Shown here: positions 1 to 6,585 of the stretch, in pieces
Layout of the letters: the number at the start of each line of letters is the position of its first letter
Numbering within the stretch: the first letter of the stretch is position 1
Virus record (IMG/VR): IMGVR_UViG_3300030012_000574
Location: 1 to 26,105 of that record
Length of the DNA: 26,105 nucleotides
Source: a virus
Strand: one strand, 5' to 3'
Notes under the pieces: generated by a model
Database searches by the model: none
What the model was told of the DNA's origin: nothing
What the model saw: the letters and a program-made list of their open reading frames with translations, nothing else
Program-made: the position numbers and the translations under genes

Positions 1-179
1 CTAACGATCTAAAAACAAAAACTTTTAGGGTTACTGTTTATCAGGAAAATACTTACTTTGTAGATGCTGATAACGGAGATGACGCTATCGAGATAGTTCA
101 AACTCAAGAACTATGGGTAGGTCATGACCAAGAAAATCATTACGAAGTAAATATGGAAGTGGAGGAGATACATGACTAG
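1..179 (+). CDS. C-terminal part of a hypothetical phage protein (5' end outside window)
   Basis: An open frame with no start enters from the left edge (first full codon at base 3) and ends at TAG 177-179, giving 58 residues from NDLKTKTFRVTVYQ to VNMEVEEIHD. The stretch KTFRVTVYQENTYFVDADNGDDAIEIV is a strand-rich, acidic pattern common in small phage early proteins of unknown role. The last codons overlap the start of the next gene (ATG at 172), and that gene's ribosome binding site GGAGGAG (161-167) lies inside this frame, so the two are probably translated from one message. I do not recognise a function. Confidence 0.6.
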   Translation, partial: NDLKTKTFRVTVYQENTYFVDADNGDDAIEIVQTQELWVGHDQENHYEVNMEVEEIHD

Positions 180-372
180 CGATCCATTAAAAAATCATAT
201 TGATGATTGGTTTGACCAAGGCGAAAAAATTAAAAAGCTTTTGGAAAATAAAGCCAGGAAAAAAGCAATCATTGTTGATGCTTACATGAATGGCGAAATA
301 GAAGACAAGCAATATATAGAAGAGATGAATGCAATTTCTGATATTTACAAGGATATTTACAAGGAAGATTAA
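172..372 (+). CDS. Hypothetical 66-residue phage protein
   Basis: A small, highly charged, probably helical protein. The ATG follows a strong Shine-Dalgarno run (GGAGGAG at 161-167) at short spacing and overlaps the preceding frame by 8 bases, which supports a real, coupled gene. There is no membrane segment, cysteine cluster or signal peptide. Lysine and glutamate are spread along the chain (DQGEKIKKLLENKARKKA), so a coiled or helical hairpin structure is likely. Function unknown. Confidence 0.6.
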   Translation: MTSDPLKNHIDDWFDQGEKIKKLLENKARKKAIIVDAYMNGEIEDKQYIEEMNAISDIYKDIYKED

Positions 373-449
373 TTACGAGGGATAACAGTGCGGAGTCTCT
401 TTTAGAGCAGGCGTGTCAACCCTTGACTACAAACAAACAACACAAAACA
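373..449 (+). promoter_or_regulatory. Leader of the RAMP-like gene with small hairpin and one GCAGGC motif
   Basis: This short gap contains CTCT-TTT-AGAG (397-407), a possible 4-bp hairpin, immediately followed by GCAGGC (407-412). The same hexamer recurs as an anchor in the G-rich array downstream (1100, 1177, 1226, 1289, 1352, 1416). The last 25 bases before the ATG are almost only A and C, with no Shine-Dalgarno sequence. I see no convincing -35/-10 pair. The shared hexamer may be chance. Confidence 0.3.
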
Positions 450-1091
450 ATGGCTACTAAAACAAAAACAAAACCAACAACAACAGCAGTTGCTATCACT
501 CCACCAGATTTCAGATTTCTTTCAATCAATTTAAAAGGAACATCCCCTCTAGTGATTAATCGCTTTAGTGCTAAAGCAATGGAAGAGATGAGAGCAACTC
601 AAGAAGCAGGTAGTACCTCTAGGAGTAAAAAAATCCGTGAGGCAAAAGACTTTGATGCTTTATATGAAGGAGCAAAGCATACTTCCGAACAAGGCTGGGA
701 AGGTATTCATGCTGCTGCATTTAGAAATGCTGCAATTAGTGCTTGTCGTGCAGTTGGCTTCAAAATGACTCATGCAAAATTAGCCTTTATGGTTTTGGCT
801 GATGGGTTTGACAAAGTTGATGGTGCTCCTTTAGTCAAATTGACAGAAGGTAAAGCAGAAAAATGGGTTGCCCCTACTCGTAACGCTACTGGTGTTATTG
901 ATTTAAGAAGTAGACCTATGTATCGCAAATGGGGAACTACTTTAAAAATCCGTTATGACGCAGGGATGCTAAGTGAAACTGACATCGTGAATTTAATTGC
1001 ACGAGTTGGGATGCAGGTAGGAATTGGAGAGGGAAGACCTGATTCAAAACAATCTGCGGGACTAGGTTTCGGATTATTTGAAATCGTTTGA
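450..1091 (+). CDS. RAMP/Cas7-like phage protein of unknown function
   Basis: A 213-residue protein. I chose ATG 450 over the in-frame TTG at 423 because ATG follows an A/C leader (ACACAAAACA) like that of 4155. Three features in order recall RAMP-superfamily proteins (Cas7, Csm3, Cmr4 type): an N-terminal strand then G-x-S-P-L (FRFLSINLKGTSPLVIN, 21-37); a helix after a small-residue turn (GIHAAAFRNAAISACR, 85-100) at the place of the RAMP 'IPGSSLKGALR' motif; and a C-terminal glycine-rich loop (190-209, G191, G193, G195, R196, G204, G206, G208) before the last strand FEIV. The array at 1100-1426 starts 9 bases after its stop. The RAMP assignment is motif-level inference; it could be an unrelated ferredoxin-like protein. 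Some phages carry homologues that I remember only as hypothetical. Confidence 0.75.
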   Translation: MATKTKTKPTTTAVAITPPDFRFLSINLKGTSPLVINRFSAKAMEEMRATQEAGSTSRSKKIREAKDFDALYEGAKHTSEQGWEGIHAAAFRNAAISACRAVGFKMTHAKLAFMVLADGFDKVDGAPLVKLTEGKAEKWVAPTRNATGVIDLRSRPMYRKWGTTLKIRYDAGMLSETDIVNLIARVGMQVGIGEGRPDSKQSAGLGFGLFEIV

Positions 1092-1099
1092 TATATAAA

Positions 1100-1426
1100 G
1101 CAGGCACGGCAGGCGGGGCGTGTACCGACGAGGTATGGAGTGATGCGGGATGGTCAGGTGAGTAAGGTAAGGAAACGCAGGCATGGCTAGAAAAGGTGGT
1201 GAAAGGTAAGGTCTGGCTTGGAAACGCAGGCGAGGAATGAAGAGTAGCGGTATGGTCGGGTAGGGTCGGGACTGGATGGCAAGGTAACGCAGGCTCGGTA
1301 TGGTATCGAAACGAAGGCGAGGCGGGGCAAGGACAGGTGAGGCACGGTTTAGCAGGCAAGGACGGGAGAGGAAGGGTGCGTCGAGGAGAGGATTGGCAAG
1401 GACGGGAGAGGAAATGCAGGCAAGGT
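1100..1426 (+). repeat. G-rich non-coding array with GG every 5 bases (GGNNN) and GCAGGC anchors
   Basis: This fills the only gene-free gap over 300 bases (1092-1458). On the plus strand G dominates and C and T are scarce, unlike the AT-rich surroundings. GG dinucleotides fall on a 5-base grid in long blocks: 1249-1275 (six in a row), 1316-1347 (seven in a row) and 1355-1411 (11 of 12). Blocks are separated by 1-4 base phase slips, several at an anchor (A)CGCAGGC or variant (1100, 1177, 1226, 1289, 1313 as GAAGGC, 1352, 1416). The three N positions vary, so this is not a simple satellite. Nothing in it looks coding: the long minus-strand frames are low-complexity Pro/Ser/Leu/His/Cys and exist only because TTA, CTA and TCA are rare here. 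Likely transcribed with the flanking genes. Function unknown. Confidence 0.85.
1355..1413 (+). repeat. 19-base direct repeat inside the GGNNN array
   Basis: GGCAAGGACGGGAGAGGAA occurs perfectly at 1355-1373 and again at 1395-1413. The offset is 40 bases, exactly eight pentamers, so both copies keep the same 5-base register. It is the only long exact repeat I see in the array and suggests growth by short in-register duplications. Confidence 0.85.
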
Positions 1427-1458
1427 TTAATTTCACTTATTCATTTACTATTTTTCTT

Positions 1459-1935
1459 ATGAACAACTACGTTTACAAAAAAACTGCTTACGTCCAAGGT
1501 GGCGTTAAAGCTCAAGATGCTGGCGAAGAGCTAGAACGGATTCAACAATCTCATGGCAAAATTACACCAGATATTGTTGTTGATGAAGCTAGACCTATTG
1601 ATTCACCATTACATAACGTCTTTGAATGGGATGATGAAAAGGCAGCGGAAAATTATCGACACTCTCAAGCTAGAGTTTTAATTCGTTCTATTGAAGTTGT
1701 GAAACCTGGAGGGAATACGGAACCTGTATTCATTCACGTTCAAACTGAGAAAGCCTATTTACCTTCTCAAATCGTTGTCCAAGATTTTGATCTTTTTGAA
1801 TCTGCAAAAAGGGCTGCGGAAAAACGACTAGATGAAGCGACTCATTCTTTGCAACAATTAAAACTTATGGCAAAGAAAAAGACGAAGATAACAAAGGCTA
1901 TTGATTTGGTTCACAAAGCTAAAGAACAACTTTAA
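1459..1935 (+). CDS. Conserved phage protein with ARPxxSPLHxxFEWDD core, paired with the GGNNN array
   Basis: A 158-residue protein. The frame is open back to 1300, but those extra codons are array translated into Arg/Gly-rich low complexity; ATG 1459 is the first start after the array and begins the ordinary sequence MNNYVYKK. The conserved part is residues 35-72: ITPDIVVDEARPIDSPLH, then FEWDD and KAAENYRHSQARVLIRSI. I recall this pattern in proteins from many unrelated phages, always of unknown function. A strand-rich middle (74-110) is followed by a basic, probably coiled-coil tail (113-158, KKKTKITKAIDLVHKAKEQL). There is no clear Shine-Dalgarno. Its position directly after the array and the RAMP-like gene suggests all three work together. 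That is inference; no enzyme motif is visible. Confidence 0.75.
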   Translation: MNNYVYKKTAYVQGGVKAQDAGEELERIQQSHGKITPDIVVDEARPIDSPLHNVFEWDDEKAAENYRHSQARVLIRSIEVVKPGGNTEPVFIHVQTEKAYLPSQIVVQDFDLFESAKRAAEKRLDEATHSLQQLKLMAKKKTKITKAIDLVHKAKEQL

Positions 1936-1997
1936 AAAATGTAAAAAAATAATTACATTTTATTAAGTTACCATGAATAGCAAAATATAAAATGTAA
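1936..1997 (+). promoter_or_regulatory. Operator-like cluster: three copies of AAAATGTAA
   Basis: AAAATGTAA lies at 1936-1944, its exact reverse complement TTACATTTT at 1953-1961 (a 9-bp inverted repeat with an 8-base gap), and a third direct copy at 1989-1997. The cluster sits in the 86-base gap between the array module and the replication/recombination operon. This suits an operator for a dimeric repressor near the promoter of 2022. The inverted pair could also be a weak AT-only terminator for the upstream unit. I cannot place -35/-10 boxes convincingly. Confidence 0.5.
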
Positions 1998-2021
1998 ACA
2001 TAGAGTTAACGCACAGTACAC

Positions 2022-2630
2022 ATGGAACAAACAGAAACACCACAAAAAGATTCAAAAGCTCTAAGAATTGATGTTGACCTGTATGAATGGGCTGCTGAAA
2101 TTAAACCGAGATACTTTACTATAACTACGTTTATCAATCATATGTTGGAAAGCAGTCTTAGAATTTATAATAGAGGCTTGACTACATATGATAAAATGGG
2201 AAAACCGACTGACAAAGAAAGAGAAAAAGAAAAAGAAAGGAAGGAGGTTTTACCTAATAGTTATATAATAGATAATAATAATAAGGAAAAAAATAAAAAA
2301 TCAAAAAAAGGCATACATCTTCCAAAAACAGTTCCAGAAGATCTAATTTTTTGTGAAGATCTTTTAAAAGATTTTTGGGTTGAAAAATCTGGTGAAAAAA
2401 CTCAACACGCTTGGAAGTATCTTTGCAATCAACTTTTAAGAATAAAAGAACTTTACGGATCAGATTCAGTTTGCAATCAACTCAAAGCAGGCACAGCTAA
2501 TCGTTGGAAGAGTATTACCCTTGTCAACTACGAGAAGCTTGGTAAACCTCAACAGAAGGGCTTACAGGAGCCAATGACGAGTCATCCTGCACAGAAGGTG
2601 TTCACAGCAGAAGGAGGCTTTGAATCGTAA
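2022..2630 (+). CDS. Replication-associated / ribbon-helix-helix-like DNA-binding protein (putative)
   Basis: A 202-residue protein in three parts. The N-terminus (about 13-50, LRIDVDLYEWAAEIKPRYFTITTFINHMLESSL) has the strand-helix-helix spacing of ribbon-helix-helix DNA-binding domains. Residues 60-100 are a charged low-complexity linker (KEREKEKERKE, NNNKEKNKKSKKG). The C-terminus (about 105-185, DFWVEKSGEKTQHAWKYLCNQLLRIKELYG) is helical and resembles a module I recall in small phage replication proteins. It heads the operon of nuclease, resolvase and annealing protein, so a role in origin recognition or operon control is plausible. The stop overlaps the next start as TAATG at 2630. Function is inferred from position and fold impression only. 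Confidence 0.55.
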   Translation: MEQTETPQKDSKALRIDVDLYEWAAEIKPRYFTITTFINHMLESSLRIYNRGLTTYDKMGKPTDKEREKEKERKEVLPNSYIIDNNNKEKNKKSKKGIHLPKTVPEDLIFCEDLLKDFWVEKSGEKTQHAWKYLCNQLLRIKELYGSDSVCNQLKAGTANRWKSITLVNYEKLGKPQQKGLQEPMTSHPAQKVFTAEGGFES

Positions 2631-2971
2631 TGGAAAGGGCTTTTAATTCAGCAGCAGCTAGAAAACTTTTAATTGAAGGTTTATTGAAAAAAAATCCTGC
2701 CAATGAAGATATCAGAATGTGGACTGTTGAAGATTTTGATGAAGAGCCAGTTAATTTAAAATATTCAAAAGAATCTTGGCTAAAAAATCCTTTAAATAAA
2801 AAATTAAGTTTAAATAATAATTTTATGTATAAAAATCCATTAGAAGAATTTCGTAATTTAACAGATGAACAAATTGCTGAAAAATTGTATCCTCCAGTAG
2901 TTGAGAGTGATGAAAAAGTAGAAATTATAGATCCAAAAGATTTACAAATTAAACAAGATGATGTTTTCTAA
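2630..2971 (+). CDS. Hypothetical 113-residue protein with acidic C-terminal tip
   Basis: It starts inside a TAATG overlap with the upstream gene and ends in another TAATG overlap with the nuclease gene, so all three are translationally linked. There are no cysteines, membrane segment or known motif. The chain is acidic and Asn/Lys-rich in the middle and ends KQDDVF, an acidic run closed by a terminal phenylalanine. The nuclease downstream ends almost identically (KQADVF). Such tips resemble the protein-docking tail of SSB (DDIPF) without its proline. A partner or adaptor of the adjacent nuclease is a reasonable guess but not shown. Confidence 0.6.
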   Translation: MERAFNSAAARKLLIEGLLKKNPANEDIRMWTVEDFDEEPVNLKYSKESWLKNPLNKKLSLNNNFMYKNPLEEFRNLTDEQIAEKLYPPVVESDEKVEIIDPKDLQIKQDDVF

Positions 2972-3600
2972 TGAATAGATTAACTGCCTTACCTATATTC
3001 AGAGATGAAGAATCTCATAAGTATTGTTGGGAACCAACTAATGAATGGCTTTATTATTCAACAACTCAAGTTTGTAATAATAAAACACCCGAAGCTCTTG
3101 CAAATATTGAACGCTATAGATATGGAATAAATGGATGGGAAGCTAGAGGTAATCACACTCATTGGTGTTTAGAGCAAAAAATGTTAGGTGATGATTCTCC
3201 TGATCCTTGTATGTATGGTGAATGGGTAAATCCATTATTAAATCATGAATATTGGGATGATTTTGAACCAATAGCAGTTGAACATATGTTATGTGATTTA
3301 CAAAAATCAGTTGGAGGAACTTTAGATTTATTGGGATACAAAAAATCTACAAAACAAATAACATTAATTGATTTAAAAACTCAAAGTAAAAGTGGAAAGT
3401 GTTATTCAACAAATGCACAAATAGGAAGTTATATTGAATCATTAAAAATACATCATAATTTAGAAGTTGATATATGTAGAACAGTATGGGCTAGACCTGG
3501 AAAAACAATAATTGGCAAAGATCAAGAAATAAATGAATGTGTAGAAGAATGGAATAAGGCATGGGAAATTTTCAAAGAAAAACAAGCAGATGTTTTCTGA
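2971..3600 (+). CDS. PD-(D/E)XK nuclease, RecB/Cas4-like family
   Basis: A 209-residue protein with the full RecB-family motif set: G60-x3-H64-x3-E68 (motif I), E104, G116-T-L-D119, D134-L-K136 in LIDLKTQ, and Q150-x3-Y154 (QIGSYIESL). In this family the Asp/Glu and Lys residues bind the metal and cut phosphodiester bonds, usually in 5'-3' or ssDNA exonuclease reactions. There are several cysteines (C19, C35, C66, C80, C108, C144, C169, C190), but I do not see the ordered four-Cys iron-sulphur arrangement of Cas4. With the annealing protein at 4155 it would form a two-component phage recombinase, the nuclease making the single-stranded DNA that the annealer pairs. The gene overlaps its upstream neighbour and ends ADVF. 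Confidence 0.8.
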   Translation: MNRLTALPIFRDEESHKYCWEPTNEWLYYSTTQVCNNKTPEALANIERYRYGINGWEARGNHTHWCLEQKMLGDDSPDPCMYGEWVNPLLNHEYWDDFEPIAVEHMLCDLQKSVGGTLDLLGYKKSTKQITLIDLKTQSKSGKCYSTNAQIGSYIESLKIHHNLEVDICRTVWARPGKTIIGKDQEINECVEEWNKAWEIFKEKQADVF

Positions 3601-3657
3601 TGGGGTTTCTTTCTGATGGATCAAAAAACTGACGTTATGCTAAAGAGGAAACAGTTA

Positions 3658-4107
3658 ATGAATGACATTTTTATTTCTGTTGTAGGGATTCCTGCTGCTC
3701 AAGGTAGTAAAAAACATGTAGGTCGAGGAATCTTAATTGAATCTTCTAAGAAGGTTGCACCTTGGAGGCAAGATGTTCGAGAAGCTTCAATGAAAGCTTT
3801 TAACGGAAATCCAATTTCTGAACCAGTAAAAATAAAAGTAATTTTTAAATTTATTAGACCTAAAGGACATTTTGGAACTGGTAAAAATCTAGAAAAATTA
3901 AAACCCTCTGCTCCTAAATATGCAACAGGTCATAATCTTGGAGATTTAGATAAATTATTAAGATCAACTTTTGATGGTTTATCTGTATCGGCTGGTGGAA
4001 CAGTAATTAAAGATGATTCATTAATTGTGCAAGTAGAAGCAGAAAAAAGATTTGCTATGAATGGCGAATATGCAGGAGCAGAAATATGGGTATCAACATT
4101 ATCTTGA
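3658..4107 (+). CDS. rusA: RusA-family Holliday junction resolvase
   Basis: About 149 residues from ATG 3658, which has GAGG (3645-3648) nine bases upstream. An in-frame ATG at 3616 would add 14 residues but has no ribosome site. The fold signature of RusA is present: N-terminal strand and GxP-x-x-x-GS-K (ISVVGIPAAQGSKKH), then W-R-x-x-V, then the catalytic region GDLDKLLRSTFDGL with conserved acidic residues, then VIKDDSLIVQVEAEKRF, where the DD and the basic KR match the family's active site. RusA enzymes are dimeric, cut four-way junctions and act late in phage recombination and DNA debranching before packaging. It sits between the nuclease and the annealing protein. Confidence 0.85.
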   Translation: MNDIFISVVGIPAAQGSKKHVGRGILIESSKKVAPWRQDVREASMKAFNGNPISEPVKIKVIFKFIRPKGHFGTGKNLEKLKPSAPKYATGHNLGDLDKLLRSTFDGLSVSAGGTVIKDDSLIVQVEAEKRFAMNGEYAGAEIWVSTLS

Positions 4108-4154
4108 CCTTTCTACAATAATAGTTTACACTTTAAAGGTGCAATAACAAAACA

Positions 4155-4904
4155 ATGCCAAACCAGTCAAAACCTAAAACAAATTCACTTCCTGATTTAT
4201 CAGGACTTATTACAAAAGAAGACATCCATCAAAAAGGTGGTGGCTCTTTTAAAGCTGATTATGTTAACTGGGCTAAAACAACTCAATACCTTAGAGAACA
4301 TGCACCAGGCTGGGACTTCCATTTAGAACCTAAAAACGAAGAATACGTTTGGGCTGCACCAGATAACACTGGGTATTTGATGTGTTATTTCCAGAATGGA
4401 GAAAGGAAAACACCTTTATTTCCTTTTCCAATAATGGATAACAGAAATAATCCATTACCACTTGAAAGAATTAATTCAAGGCATTTAACAGACTCACATC
4501 GGCGAGGTTTATGTGCTTGTTCAGCCTTTACCTTTGGTCTGGCATATGAATTATGGGCAAGAATTGAAATTGAAGAAGCTAATCAACCTGATTTACCTTC
4601 TAATAAACAAAACATTTCAAGAACTCCAAATAAACCAGCAAAAGATTTACCTCCTCAACAAAAAAATATTATTGAAAAAGCAACAAGTTTTTCTGTTCCT
4701 ACTTTGATTGGGAGTGATGCTGCTTCAGTATTAACCAATCATTTAACGAATATCATGAAAACTGATAAAAAGAAACTTGAAGCTATTAAAGAAAAATTTT
4801 TCAAACAAAATAAAATGAGTACAACAGAACTTCATGTTTCAAAACTTACTGCTGAACAAGGATCATCACTTACTCAAATTATTCAGGAGTTTACTACTCC
4901 TTAA
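4155..4904 (+). CDS. Single-strand annealing protein, DUF1071/Sak3-like
   Basis: A 249-residue protein. The N-terminal 145 residues fit the DUF1071 pattern: YVNWAKTTQYLREHAPGW (helix with the YxxWa motif), the strand YLMCYFQNGERKTPLFPFPI, then MDNRNNPLPL, a T/S-rich linker, and the helix HRRGLCACSAFTFGLAYELW leading to an acidic end. DUF1071 proteins (Sak3 group) are phage recombinases thought to coat single strands and pair complementary DNA. Residues 150-180 are a Pro/Asn/Lys linker. The C-terminal 70 residues (SVPTLIGSDAASVLTNH and on) form a second helical domain of unknown role. The ATG follows ATAACAAAACA with no Shine-Dalgarno. The stop overlaps the next small gene as TAATG. Confidence 0.8.
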   Translation: MPNQSKPKTNSLPDLSGLITKEDIHQKGGGSFKADYVNWAKTTQYLREHAPGWDFHLEPKNEEYVWAAPDNTGYLMCYFQNGERKTPLFPFPIMDNRNNPLPLERINSRHLTDSHRRGLCACSAFTFGLAYELWARIEIEEANQPDLPSNKQNISRTPNKPAKDLPPQQKNIIEKATSFSVPTLIGSDAASVLTNHLTNIMKTDKKKLEAIKEKFFKQNKMSTTELHVSKLTAEQGSSLTQIIQEFTTP

Positions 4905-5014
4905 TGGATGCAAAAGCAATCGAACAGGCTGCTGAACAAGTTTTAAATCAACTTAAACAAAGAAATTTATCACGCATTCATCAAAAACAACATCAACAAA
5001 ACTCAAACAAATGA
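4904..5014 (+). CDS. 36-residue hypothetical peptide between annealing protein and SSB-like gene
   Basis: The ATG is shared with the upstream stop (TAATG at 4902-4906) and the stop TGA is shared with the downstream start (ATGA at 5011-5014), so it is locked into the operon on both sides. The peptide MDAKAIEQAAEQVLNQLKQR is an amphipathic helix with a Gln/His/Asn-rich tail. No motif is recognised. It may be a real small protein or mainly a translational coupler between two abundant DNA-binding proteins. Confidence 0.55.
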   Translation: MDAKAIEQAAEQVLNQLKQRNLSRIHQKQHQQNSNK

Positions 5015-5376
5015 ATCAATTTAATTCAAACAAAAAATTTACTCCTGCTTTTACCTATCCCGTTAATTGGTCAACTGGCGACAATCAGTTTGATGATAAA
5101 GATATAAATCCAAAAACATTAAGTTTAAAAATACCTGTAAAATCTATTCCTGAATTTTGTGCTTTTCTAATGGCACTTGAAGCTGATAAGTCAAAACATA
5201 AAAAAACCAAAGGTGGTATTTACAATTCAAATACAAAACAAAAGGAAAATAATGATGATGATCTTGTTGTTTACATTAATGCAAAAGGTAGAGAGTCAGA
5301 TGATGGCTATGGAATGTATGGCAATATAAATCCAGCAAAAATAAATTACATAGATTCAAACGAAATTCCTTTTTAA
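5011..5376 (+). CDS. Possible phage single-stranded DNA-binding protein (SSB-like)
   Basis: A 121-residue protein next to the annealing protein. It lacks a clear OB-fold signature that I can call by eye. It has a strand-rich middle (LSLKIPVKSIPEFCAFLMAL, 37-56), a basic patch (DKSKHKKTKGG), a strand LVVYINAKGRE, a Gly/Tyr/Asn-rich stretch and a C-terminus DSNEIPF. That end matches the acidic, Pro-Phe tip (DDIPF) used by bacterial SSBs to recruit nucleases and helicases. Size, place in the operon and tip together suggest an SSB analogue. An accessory recombination protein that only mimics the tip is the alternative. Confidence 0.5.
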   Translation: MNQFNSNKKFTPAFTYPVNWSTGDNQFDDKDINPKTLSLKIPVKSIPEFCAFLMALEADKSKHKKTKGGIYNSNTKQKENNDDDLVVYINAKGRESDDGYGMYGNINPAKINYIDSNEIPF

Positions 5377-5379
5377 AAT

Positions 5380-5568
5380 ATGACTGAAAAAGAAATTTTT
5401 GACACTTTTTATAGTGTCATAGAATCTTCTGCTACTCCTTTTTATAAGCGATTGGCTCAAGCAGCACTGGTAGCAACTGCTAATAATAAAATGTTGATTT
5501 TAAAAACATGGCCGGAAATTTTTGAACAATACGGCCCTTTATCTTCTCAACATAAAAATGAATTATAA
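5380..5568 (+). CDS. Hypothetical 62-residue protein
   Basis: It starts 3 bases after the SSB-like gene (TAAAATATG) and its last codons overlap the start of the small gene at 5558. The protein is helical, MTEKEIFDTFYSVIESSATP followed by an alanine-rich helix (RLAQAALVATANNKMLIL). There are no cysteines, signal peptide or clear membrane segment. It is probably a small early protein of the same message. Function unknown. Confidence 0.55.
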   Translation: MTEKEIFDTFYSVIESSATPFYKRLAQAALVATANNKMLILKTWPEIFEQYGPLSSQHKNEL

Positions 5569-5677
5569 GCAGGAGCAAATTAAAAGAATTGAAAAGCGTA
5601 TTAAAGAGCTTTTATTTATCCGTAAACAATTAAAAAACGACTCAAACAACAACAATGAACAAACTAACACCCATTGA
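5558..5677 (+). CDS. 39-residue basic coiled-coil peptide
   Basis: The ATG lies within the end of the previous gene (ATGAATTATAA) and the frame runs 23 bases into the next gene, ending at TGA 5675-5677. The sequence MNYKQEQIKRIEKRIKELLF is a regular basic amphipathic helix with heptad-like Ile/Leu spacing, then an Asn-rich tail. The composition looks protein-like and the overlaps match the neighbours, so I think it is real. Its role is unknown. Confidence 0.5.
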   Translation: MNYKQEQIKRIEKRIKELLFIRKQLKNDSNNNNEQTNTH

Positions 5678-5927
5678 ACTTCTTGATCTTTACAAAGCTT
5701 TTAATCAAATTCTTGCTTTAATTATTGGAAGACGCTTTGCAAGGCAATCTGAACATCTTCACAATAAAACTATAGAACGTCTTGATTATTGCCAAGATCT
5801 AATTAAACAAGAATTAAAAGAAGCTTGCGATCTTCAAGATACAATTCGAGTGAAACAAGCCACTAGAAAATTAGATAGTTTAGATTCTCTTGTTACTATC
5901 TTTTCTTTCCTACGAAGACTTGATTAA
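5655..5927 (+). CDS. Hypothetical 90-residue helical protein
   Basis: It begins at an ATG after the A/C leader CAAACAACAACA and inside the end of the 39-residue gene. The protein is all-helical by composition: LTPIELLDLYKAFNQILALIIGRR, then a His-rich turn, then LIKQELKEACDLQDTIRVKQ. There is no enzyme motif. It closes the early operon: 44 bases follow before the next gene, with a promoter-like element. Possibly a small DNA-binding or regulatory protein; not recognised. Confidence 0.55.
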   Translation: MNKLTPIELLDLYKAFNQILALIIGRRFARQSEHLHNKTIERLDYCQDLIKQELKEACDLQDTIRVKQATRKLDSLDSLVTIFSFLRRLD

Positions 5928-5934
5928 TTTATTC

Positions 5935-5944
5935 TATACTAATA
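5935..5944 (+). promoter_or_regulatory. Promoter-like element TATACTAATA before the 5972 gene
   Basis: TATACT (5935-5940) is one base from the -10 consensus TATAAT, and the first ATG of the next unit follows about 30 bases later. No good -35 is seen at 16-18 bases. The identical 10-mer occurs on the minus strand at 23642-23651, also in an intergenic gap before a gene, and a related ATACTAATAT lies on the minus strand at 7265-7274. That recurrence is the main support. Confidence 0.35.
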
Positions 5945-5971
5945 TCCTAGTAATGAATTAATGGTTCATGA

Positions 5972-6250
5972 ATGGCTACTGTTAAAAAAAGAGAAGATGG
6001 CAAGTATATGATTCAAGTATTACTACCTCCCAATAGAGGAAAATTATATGCTGACTACATTGAATCAAATGATCTACAAGCAAGTAGTCATTTAAAAGAA
6101 TTAGTGTTTCAATTTCTTGAAACTATTCACACAGCAGAGGAATGTGAAGCTGTAAAATTAGAAGACCAAAAAAATTGGAGACAAATTGTTGAACGAAGAG
6201 TACAAGGCAAAGAAAATGCCAGGAAACAACGAGAATCAAAAAAACTTTGA
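5972..6250 (+). CDS. Hypothetical 92-residue basic protein, possible regulator
   Basis: It starts a new plus-strand unit after the promoter-like element. Residues 1-25 (MATVKKREDGKYMIQVLLPP) look like a strand hairpin. Residues 33-60 (DLQASSHLKELVFQFLETI) form helices whose spacing could suit a ribbon-helix-helix domain. The C-terminal third is a long Arg/Lys/Glu helix (WRQIVERRVQGKENARKQRE). Size, charge and position suggest a small DNA- or RNA-binding regulator, but no family is certain. It overlaps the next small gene by 35 bases. Confidence 0.5.
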   Translation: MATVKKREDGKYMIQVLLPPNRGKLYADYIESNDLQASSHLKELVFQFLETIHTAEECEAVKLEDQKNWRQIVERRVQGKENARKQRESKKL

Positions 6251-6365
6251 TTATGTTAGTTGTAATGGAACTTTATTTCGTATTTTTGATGGCAGACGTA
6301 TCTGGTTAGAAAATCCACCGGAAGATTATCAATGTATAGATGGTTCAAGTTGGATCAGTAATTAA
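6216..6365 (+). CDS. 49-residue hypothetical protein
   Basis: The frame from ATG 6216 to TAA 6365 overlaps the previous gene by 35 bases in another frame, then fills the gap to the zinc-ribbon gene. The peptide after residue 10 reads like a folded mini-protein: FDYVSCNGTLFRIFDGRRIW, then LENPPEDYQCIDGSSWISN. It has aromatic residues, two cysteines and a strand-turn-strand pattern. Composition is far from random for this AT-rich DNA. Function unknown. Confidence 0.5.
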   Translation: MPGNNENQKNFDYVSCNGTLFRIFDGRRIWLENPPEDYQCIDGSSWISN

Positions 6366-6384
6366 TTTTTTAAAAAAAATAAGT

Positions 6385-6585
6385 ATGAATTTAAAGGTTA
6401 GCCATACCCCATGTCCTTGCTGTCACTTTTTTTCCTCTCAAGTAGTTGTTCACACTCAGAGAGATCGTAAAGGTGTTATTTTACGCAGAAGGCATTGTAA
6501 AGATTGTGATCATAGATGGTACACAATTCAATATCCAGAAGTTGTATTTACAAACTCTAATCCTTATAAAGCAATCAAGGCTTAG
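6385..6585 (+). CDS. NrdR-like zinc-ribbon protein
   Basis: A 66-residue protein from ATG 6385 (MNLKVSHTPCPCC); longer in-frame starts at 6340 add only an unlikely leader. Two Cys pairs, CPCC near residues 10-13 and CKDC near 38-41, flank the basic stretch VVVHTQRDRKGVILRRRH. This matches the zinc-ribbon of NrdR (CPxC, R-rich loop, RRRxC-x-x-C-x-x-R-[WF]-x-T). NrdR represses ribonucleotide reductase genes but also has an ATP-cone, which is absent here, so this is the DNA-binding half alone. It could be a phage transcription factor. Its 3' end overlaps the convergent gene at 6575 by 11 bases. Confidence 0.65.
   Translation: MNLKVSHTPCPCCHFFSSQVVVHTQRDRKGVILRRRHCKDCDHRWYTIQYPEVVFTNSNPYKAIKA

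Follow-up and report, generated by a model that had tools for sequence, protein, structure and literature searches.

What kind of element fills the G-rich gap between two genes of an uncultivated phage, and what might it do there? The stretch of DNA analysed here, called the window below, comprises 26,105 nucleotides of the IMG/VR virus record IMGVR_UViG_3300030012_000574. An initial annotation, made from the letters of the window, described a strand-asymmetric, non-coding array of phased GGNNN units in this gap. This element is real, functional and strongly conserved: it is the guide array of a VIPR (Viral Interference Programmable Repeat) system. We assign a probability of about 0.94 to the reading in which the whole locus 450–1935 is the VIPR system of a siphovirus-like phage, composed of a vipr gene, an array of several guide RNAs (vrRNAs) and a vap gene encoding a VIPR accessory protein, and works in the manner proposed below.

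The array is built on a five-base grid

The GG dinucleotides fall where they were first reported, in a block of six (1249, 1254, 1259, 1264, 1269 and 1274), a block of seven (1316–1346) and a block with 11 of 12 grid positions filled (1355–1410, with 1380 missing). The autocorrelation at a lag of five bases, which the initial annotation had put forward as a check, bears out the period: 37 GG pairs are counted versus 11.0 in 1,000 dinucleotide shuffles (z value of 8.7), none of which reaches as high. Counts are elevated at lags of 10, 15 and 20 as well (27, 24 and 22, respectively, versus about 11) and depleted at lags of 2, 3, 7 and 8. A five-base grid model that permits 4-base steps gives the array a score of 113 versus 10.0±2.8 for 300 shuffles, with a shuffle maximum of 19.7. 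The array extends over 1103–1428 of the plus strand, as against the 1100–1426 given at first.

As initially described, the signal lies in the space separating two genes, is confined to a single strand and shows a strong G bias. The unit was thought to hold three variable positions; variability is confirmed, with two free positions and not three, the base after GG being A, C or T. At this position, G is found in 1 of 58 units of the window and in 2% of those across the arrays of the family (C 68%, T 16% and A 15%), and about a third of the window units begin with GGA. Protein coding, which the initial annotation had denied for the array, is not supported here either, as a period of five is not that of codons and the interior cannot be aligned among close relatives; a minus-strand ORF (1074–1436) overlaps the array, and nothing supports its status as a gene.

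GG tracts separated by three-base loops formally constitute a two-layer quadruplex motif (GGNNNGGNNNGGNNNGG), and the strong G bias of one strand would suit G-quadruplexes, formed in DNA or RNA, that block a polymerase or serve as a structural signal. This alternative, already raised in the initial annotation, is very improbable. Units with a broken GG (GTACC, GACGA, GATGC and GAAGA) still hold the register, so that phase rather than tetrads is kept, and G is avoided at the third base. Quadruplexes would also leave unexplained the linkage to a RAMP gene, the hypervariable NN pairs and the target matches described below. RNA folding of the whole array gives a z value of +0.73, no more structured than shuffles, and a scan for promoters and terminators returns no more than shuffles do. 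The array matches no Rfam family at gathering thresholds and no tRNA was found by a tRNA search.

The array adjoins a RAMP gene and a candidate accessory gene

The supposition that the period is under selection, for example for a protein filament reading five bases per step, proves right in kind: the period suits a protein that oligomerises along RNA in steps of five bases. The array adjoins a RAMP gene. This plus-strand gene, vipr (450–1091), encodes a protein of 213 residues (P0001, phrog_4652) that alignment, fold and profile comparisons identify as Cas7/Csm3-like and predicted to bind guide RNA. No Pfam family matches it. An invariant G-loop, GMQVGxGEGR, runs through the 51-member family alignment, and the best PDB folds for the AlphaFold2 model (pLDDT of 86) are Csm3/Cas7 chains (best E value of 1.7e-5; VIA Z value of 11.5, 148 residues at 3.7 Å); all 44 Foldseek matches at E≤0.001 are CRISPR RAMPs. 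Compared with PDB sequences, the family profile has a single match at E≤0.01, chain 36pp_D, the ‘SUSP1 Vipr protein' (E value of 6.3e-5), and this match spans the G-loop, placing P0001 as a homologue of SUSP1 Vipr. PADLOC finds no CRISPR matches for vipr or vap.

The gene on the other side of the array (1459–1935, plus strand) encodes a protein of 158 residues (P0002, phrog_15946) present at 65 of 76 vipr loci. Among isolate phages, vipr is found in 33 and P0002 in 33, with the same split over Mycobacterium, Gordonia and one cyanophage. Since P0002 accompanies vipr and is equally frequent in isolates, it is the candidate vap. It has no Pfam family; its AlphaFold2 model is confident (pLDDT of 94.5), the N-terminal fold giving weak winged-helix-like matches (Z value below 7) and Foldseek no significant fold.

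Arrays accompany vipr at nearly all loci of the family

The window and 71 IMG/VR relatives of P0001 make up a set of 72 loci, and a strong array lies on the vipr strand at 67 of them, on the other strand at 2. The enrichment beside homologues of the 450–1091 gene that had been predicted is thus overwhelming. The five loci below threshold comprise one contig that ends inside an array (L022), one weaker array (L063) and three loci with none (L042, L064 and L072), of which L064 and L072 are cut within vipr. At L042, more than 3 kb of sequence downstream of the vipr homologue hold no array, which was lost or lies upstream beyond the contig. In 46 phage contigs fetched otherwise (437 kb) no array is present, the best score being 15 versus a median of 151. 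In whole VIPR-phage records, no array lies elsewhere than at the vipr locus or beside it at the end of a contig.

TRAP binds (G/U)AG repeats every five bases, the same period as that of the array. Binding of the transcript by such a ring, distinct from Vipr, in order to regulate a downstream gene is nevertheless hardly credible. The proteins scanned in the vicinity of the array include none from a TRAP-like gene, and some arrays, such as that of L070 (3935–5546), reach hundreds of units and exceed an 11-mer ring. Moreover, arrays are located upstream of vipr, between vipr and the accessory gene, or after the accessory gene.

Comparison of the window with its nearest relative, L004, supports the reading as a guide array. 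DNA identity is 83% over the vipr stretch and 95% over the vap stretch, and both array edges align, with an unalignable interior between them. In a set of 71 distinct arrays, NN positions hold 3.94 of 4 bits, and modules mostly count 8–11 pentamers. Together with the punctuation shared by the family, described below, these features suggest guides that can be exchanged between constant punctuation marks. The variable bases, considered at first as filler, are rather targeting information.

This branch of VIPR is present in dozens of uncultivated phages as well as in cultured mycobacteriophages, Gordonia phages and a cyanophage. A direct BLASTN search of the locus against isolate phages returns nothing. 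Four accessions of cultured Mycobacterium or Gordonia phages and a cyanophage (NC_023580.1, MW534375.1, MN234179.1 and BK059895.1) contain vipr and vap together with an array; their records label the proteins hypothetical or leave the place empty. The phages Saal (Mycobacterium smegmatis mc2 155) and ODay (Gordonia terrae) possess all three components. One module, GGCAG GGCGA GGATC GTTTA GGCGA TCAAT, recurs in different phages with its imperfect GG units included, near-identical in L011 (1365–1946), L012 (5181–5665) and L016 (5154–5589) and as variants in L008, L014 and L017; it could act as a guide against a target that these phages have in common, or else be structural, as GATCG...CGATC could pair.

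Register slips divide the array into modules

The grid-model parse of 1103–1428 shows GGHNN pentamers broken by 4-base units, most of which belong to punctuation such as GGAAACGCA. One-base slips of the grid coincide with recurring punctuation (GGAAACGCA, GGTAACGCA, GGTTTAGCA and GGAAATGCA) at 1171–1179, 1220–1228, 1283–1291, 1346–1354 and 1410–1418, the last being GGAAATGCA, and with a further element, CGAAACGAA, at 1307–1315. These recurring one-base slips make the array a series of modules, six in number and all on the plus strand.

Parsing gives the NN code of each. Module M1 (1112–1170) reads GG GT CC GA AT GT GC AT CA (GA) and contains one internal 4-mer slip. M2 (1180–1219) reads AT TA AA GG AA AA CT TT, and M3 (1229–1282) reads GA AT GA GC AT CG AG CG CT, followed by a 4-mer slip and AA. 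M4 (1292–1306), with the code TC AT AT, is probably too short to guide alone. M5 (1316–1345) reads GA GG AA CA GA AC, and M6 (1355–1409) reads AA CG GA AG GC GA GA TT AA CG GA. An 18-base near-direct repeat (GGCAAGGACGGGAGAGGA) occurs in M6 at 1355–1372 and 1395–1412, 40 bases apart, and is perhaps a trace of array growth via duplication.

The punctuation is shared by the family. In the 71 distinct arrays, the last unit before a slip mostly carries CAA, CAC or CAT and is followed by NGCA, with family-wide counts of 397 for GGCA, 140 for CGCA, 43 for TGCA and 27 for AGCA. The module end is thus a short, conserved pattern, GGHAH plus NGCA, with no structured tail seen.

Relation to VIPR and other guide systems

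The initial annotation knew of no named element of this kind, yet the name VIPR is already in place (PMC13142463), and the present analysis arrived independently, starting from raw sequence, at a guide system whose sole description is this 2026 preprint, which is not peer reviewed. The VIPR terms occur in no other paper of the literature collection searched. The preprint describes systems of phage SUSP1 and of a P. fulva prophage, in which a RAMP protein and RNAs of alternating GGY and NN serve to repress competing phages, double-stranded DNA being read with one base skipped at each step (PMC13142463). The Vipr protein there is a RAMP homologue with an RRM core, a G-loop and a thumb, and each vrRNA consists of 9–16 tandem pentamers, GGY plus hypervariable NN, with an invariable 3′ tail (PMC13142463). 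The array is intergenic, beside vipr and on the same strand, vap has a DNA-related function, the skipped base of targets lies at the codon wobble, and staggered arrays and related consensus forms are mentioned (PMC13142463).

The locus of the window resembles this system in its G-loop RAMP protein, single candidate accessory gene, flanking array of GG plus NN pentamers, phage origin and putative one-base-skip reading. It differs in its third base, A, C or T (GGH) versus the GGY of the main consensus in the preprint, and in its modules, some of which are shorter and which are joined by a slip (GGHAH plus NGCA) with no structured tail seen. Such slip-punctuated arrays may correspond to the staggered type that the preprint mentions.

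By analogy with the preprint system (PMC13142463), the array of the window would be transcribed with its operon from the plus strand, and each GGHNN pentamer of the RNA would be bound via its conserved GG by one Vipr subunit. Its two variable bases would then pair with double-stranded DNA, one target base being skipped per step (NNxNNx...), usually the wobble base of a codon. The bound complex is expected to repress a gene in some competitor phage, perhaps with the aid of Vap, and a one-base register slip with its punctuation would form the end of each guide.

With the Cas7/Csm3 proteins that form the backbones of class 1 CRISPR–Cas types III and VII, Vipr shares the RAMP fold, the G-loop, assembly as an oligomer on guide RNA and a periodic disruption of pairing. 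The locus differs from these systems in having no nearby cas gene or palindromic repeat-spacer array, a single small protein and a guide read two bases in five. Membership in CRISPR–Cas, defined by identical repeats and cas1/cas2, was considered and rejected: the array contains no long identical repeats and none of the ten proteins scanned over 172–6585 is encoded by a cas gene. TIGR-Tas (PMC12045711) likewise combines a tandem array of guides, borne by phages, with a single adjacent protein gene, and targets DNA. It is set apart in that Tas is not known to be a RAMP and that the guides consist of contiguous spacers.

Predicted targets of the guides

The NN pairs best fit codon positions 1 and 2 in the sense orientation, which leads the second-best of six phases by 136 lnL units (3,948 pairs), and a purine preference of the scaffold could contribute to this fit. 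When 351 guides are searched against array-masked DNA of VIPR phages (about 1.66 Mb), a one-base skip gives 2 perfect targets and, in all, 9 guides with no more than one mismatch, versus 0.2 and 4.2±2.1 for shuffled guides; the excess is modest, the highest of 20 shuffles likewise attaining 9. Skips of 0, 2 and 3 bases give 1, 3 and 4 guides, with no excess. The skipped base is the wobble base of the longest frame in 5 of the 9 targets (23 of 99 in shuffles), and in a sixth, targeted in L034 by L033, the wobble-skipped frame holds an identified AAA gene. These matches lend modest support to a one-base-skip code in the relatives. The two perfect targets match up to, and excluding, the last unit, which supports the slip as the putative mark of the guide end.

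Most telling is a pair of relatives that seem to target one another. A guide of L034, from its module 5386, matches L033 at 18 of 18 NN positions (2911–2937) and a guide of L033 matches L034 at 15 of 16 (5824–5847), in homologous AAA_24 (RecA-like) genes and at nearby motifs; the targeted genes, which we take to be Sak4-like, sit just downstream of each other's VIPR locus. In addition, L062 carries a guide with a full match (16 of 16) to a terminase gene. Such matches are predictions, and they supply testable targets, including two phages aiming at each other. The GGH instead of GGY consensus, the slips at module ends and the reciprocal pair are possibly new details. It is conceivable, though we hold it only tentatively and think it somewhat less probable than the contrary, that slip-punctuated GGH arrays constitute a distinct VIPR design, in which what ends a guide is a shift of register, and not a structured tail or a processing site, with reciprocal use against recombination genes (L033 and L034).

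For the guides of the window itself no convincing target is found, matches being about as many as chance gives, and the exact full codes of M1 and M6 are absent from IMG/VR. The nine units of M3 have one match (18 of 18, in frame), in a contig of 55% GC (L157), set aside because an estimated 1–2 such matches are expected by chance and the GC content does not fit. A 20 of 20 match of M1 in a gene of a Gemmatimonas MAG (66% GC) from a genome collection, presumably of the Fic family, was set aside in the same way. Eight-unit patterns of M6 and M1 match 20 and 19 stretches, respectively, near the estimated chance level; about half of the M1 stretches belong to one virion-protein family (RDVPEIVAIQAIRNA), a targeting that is suggestive only. 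The tail protein of the window is nearest to those of Prochlorococcus siphoviruses, so that a cyanobacterial host is likely, and the competitor phage may be absent from collections.

The lack of targets, the degenerate GG of several window units and the short M4 and M5 could also indicate a decayed VIPR locus whose array is a functionless relic. This is improbable, if less so than quadruplexes or a TRAP-like ring: the vipr and vap frames are intact and highly conserved, the array has turned over relative to L004 with conserved edges, and degenerate GG is a family-wide trait, the two G positions being kept at 91% and 85%. A functional guide array remains the preferred reading.

Near the VIPR locus, the window encodes an exonuclease, a RusA resolvase and a Sak-type annealing protein (2971–4904); RecA-like genes adjoin VIPR also in L033 and L034, the two relatives that target each other.
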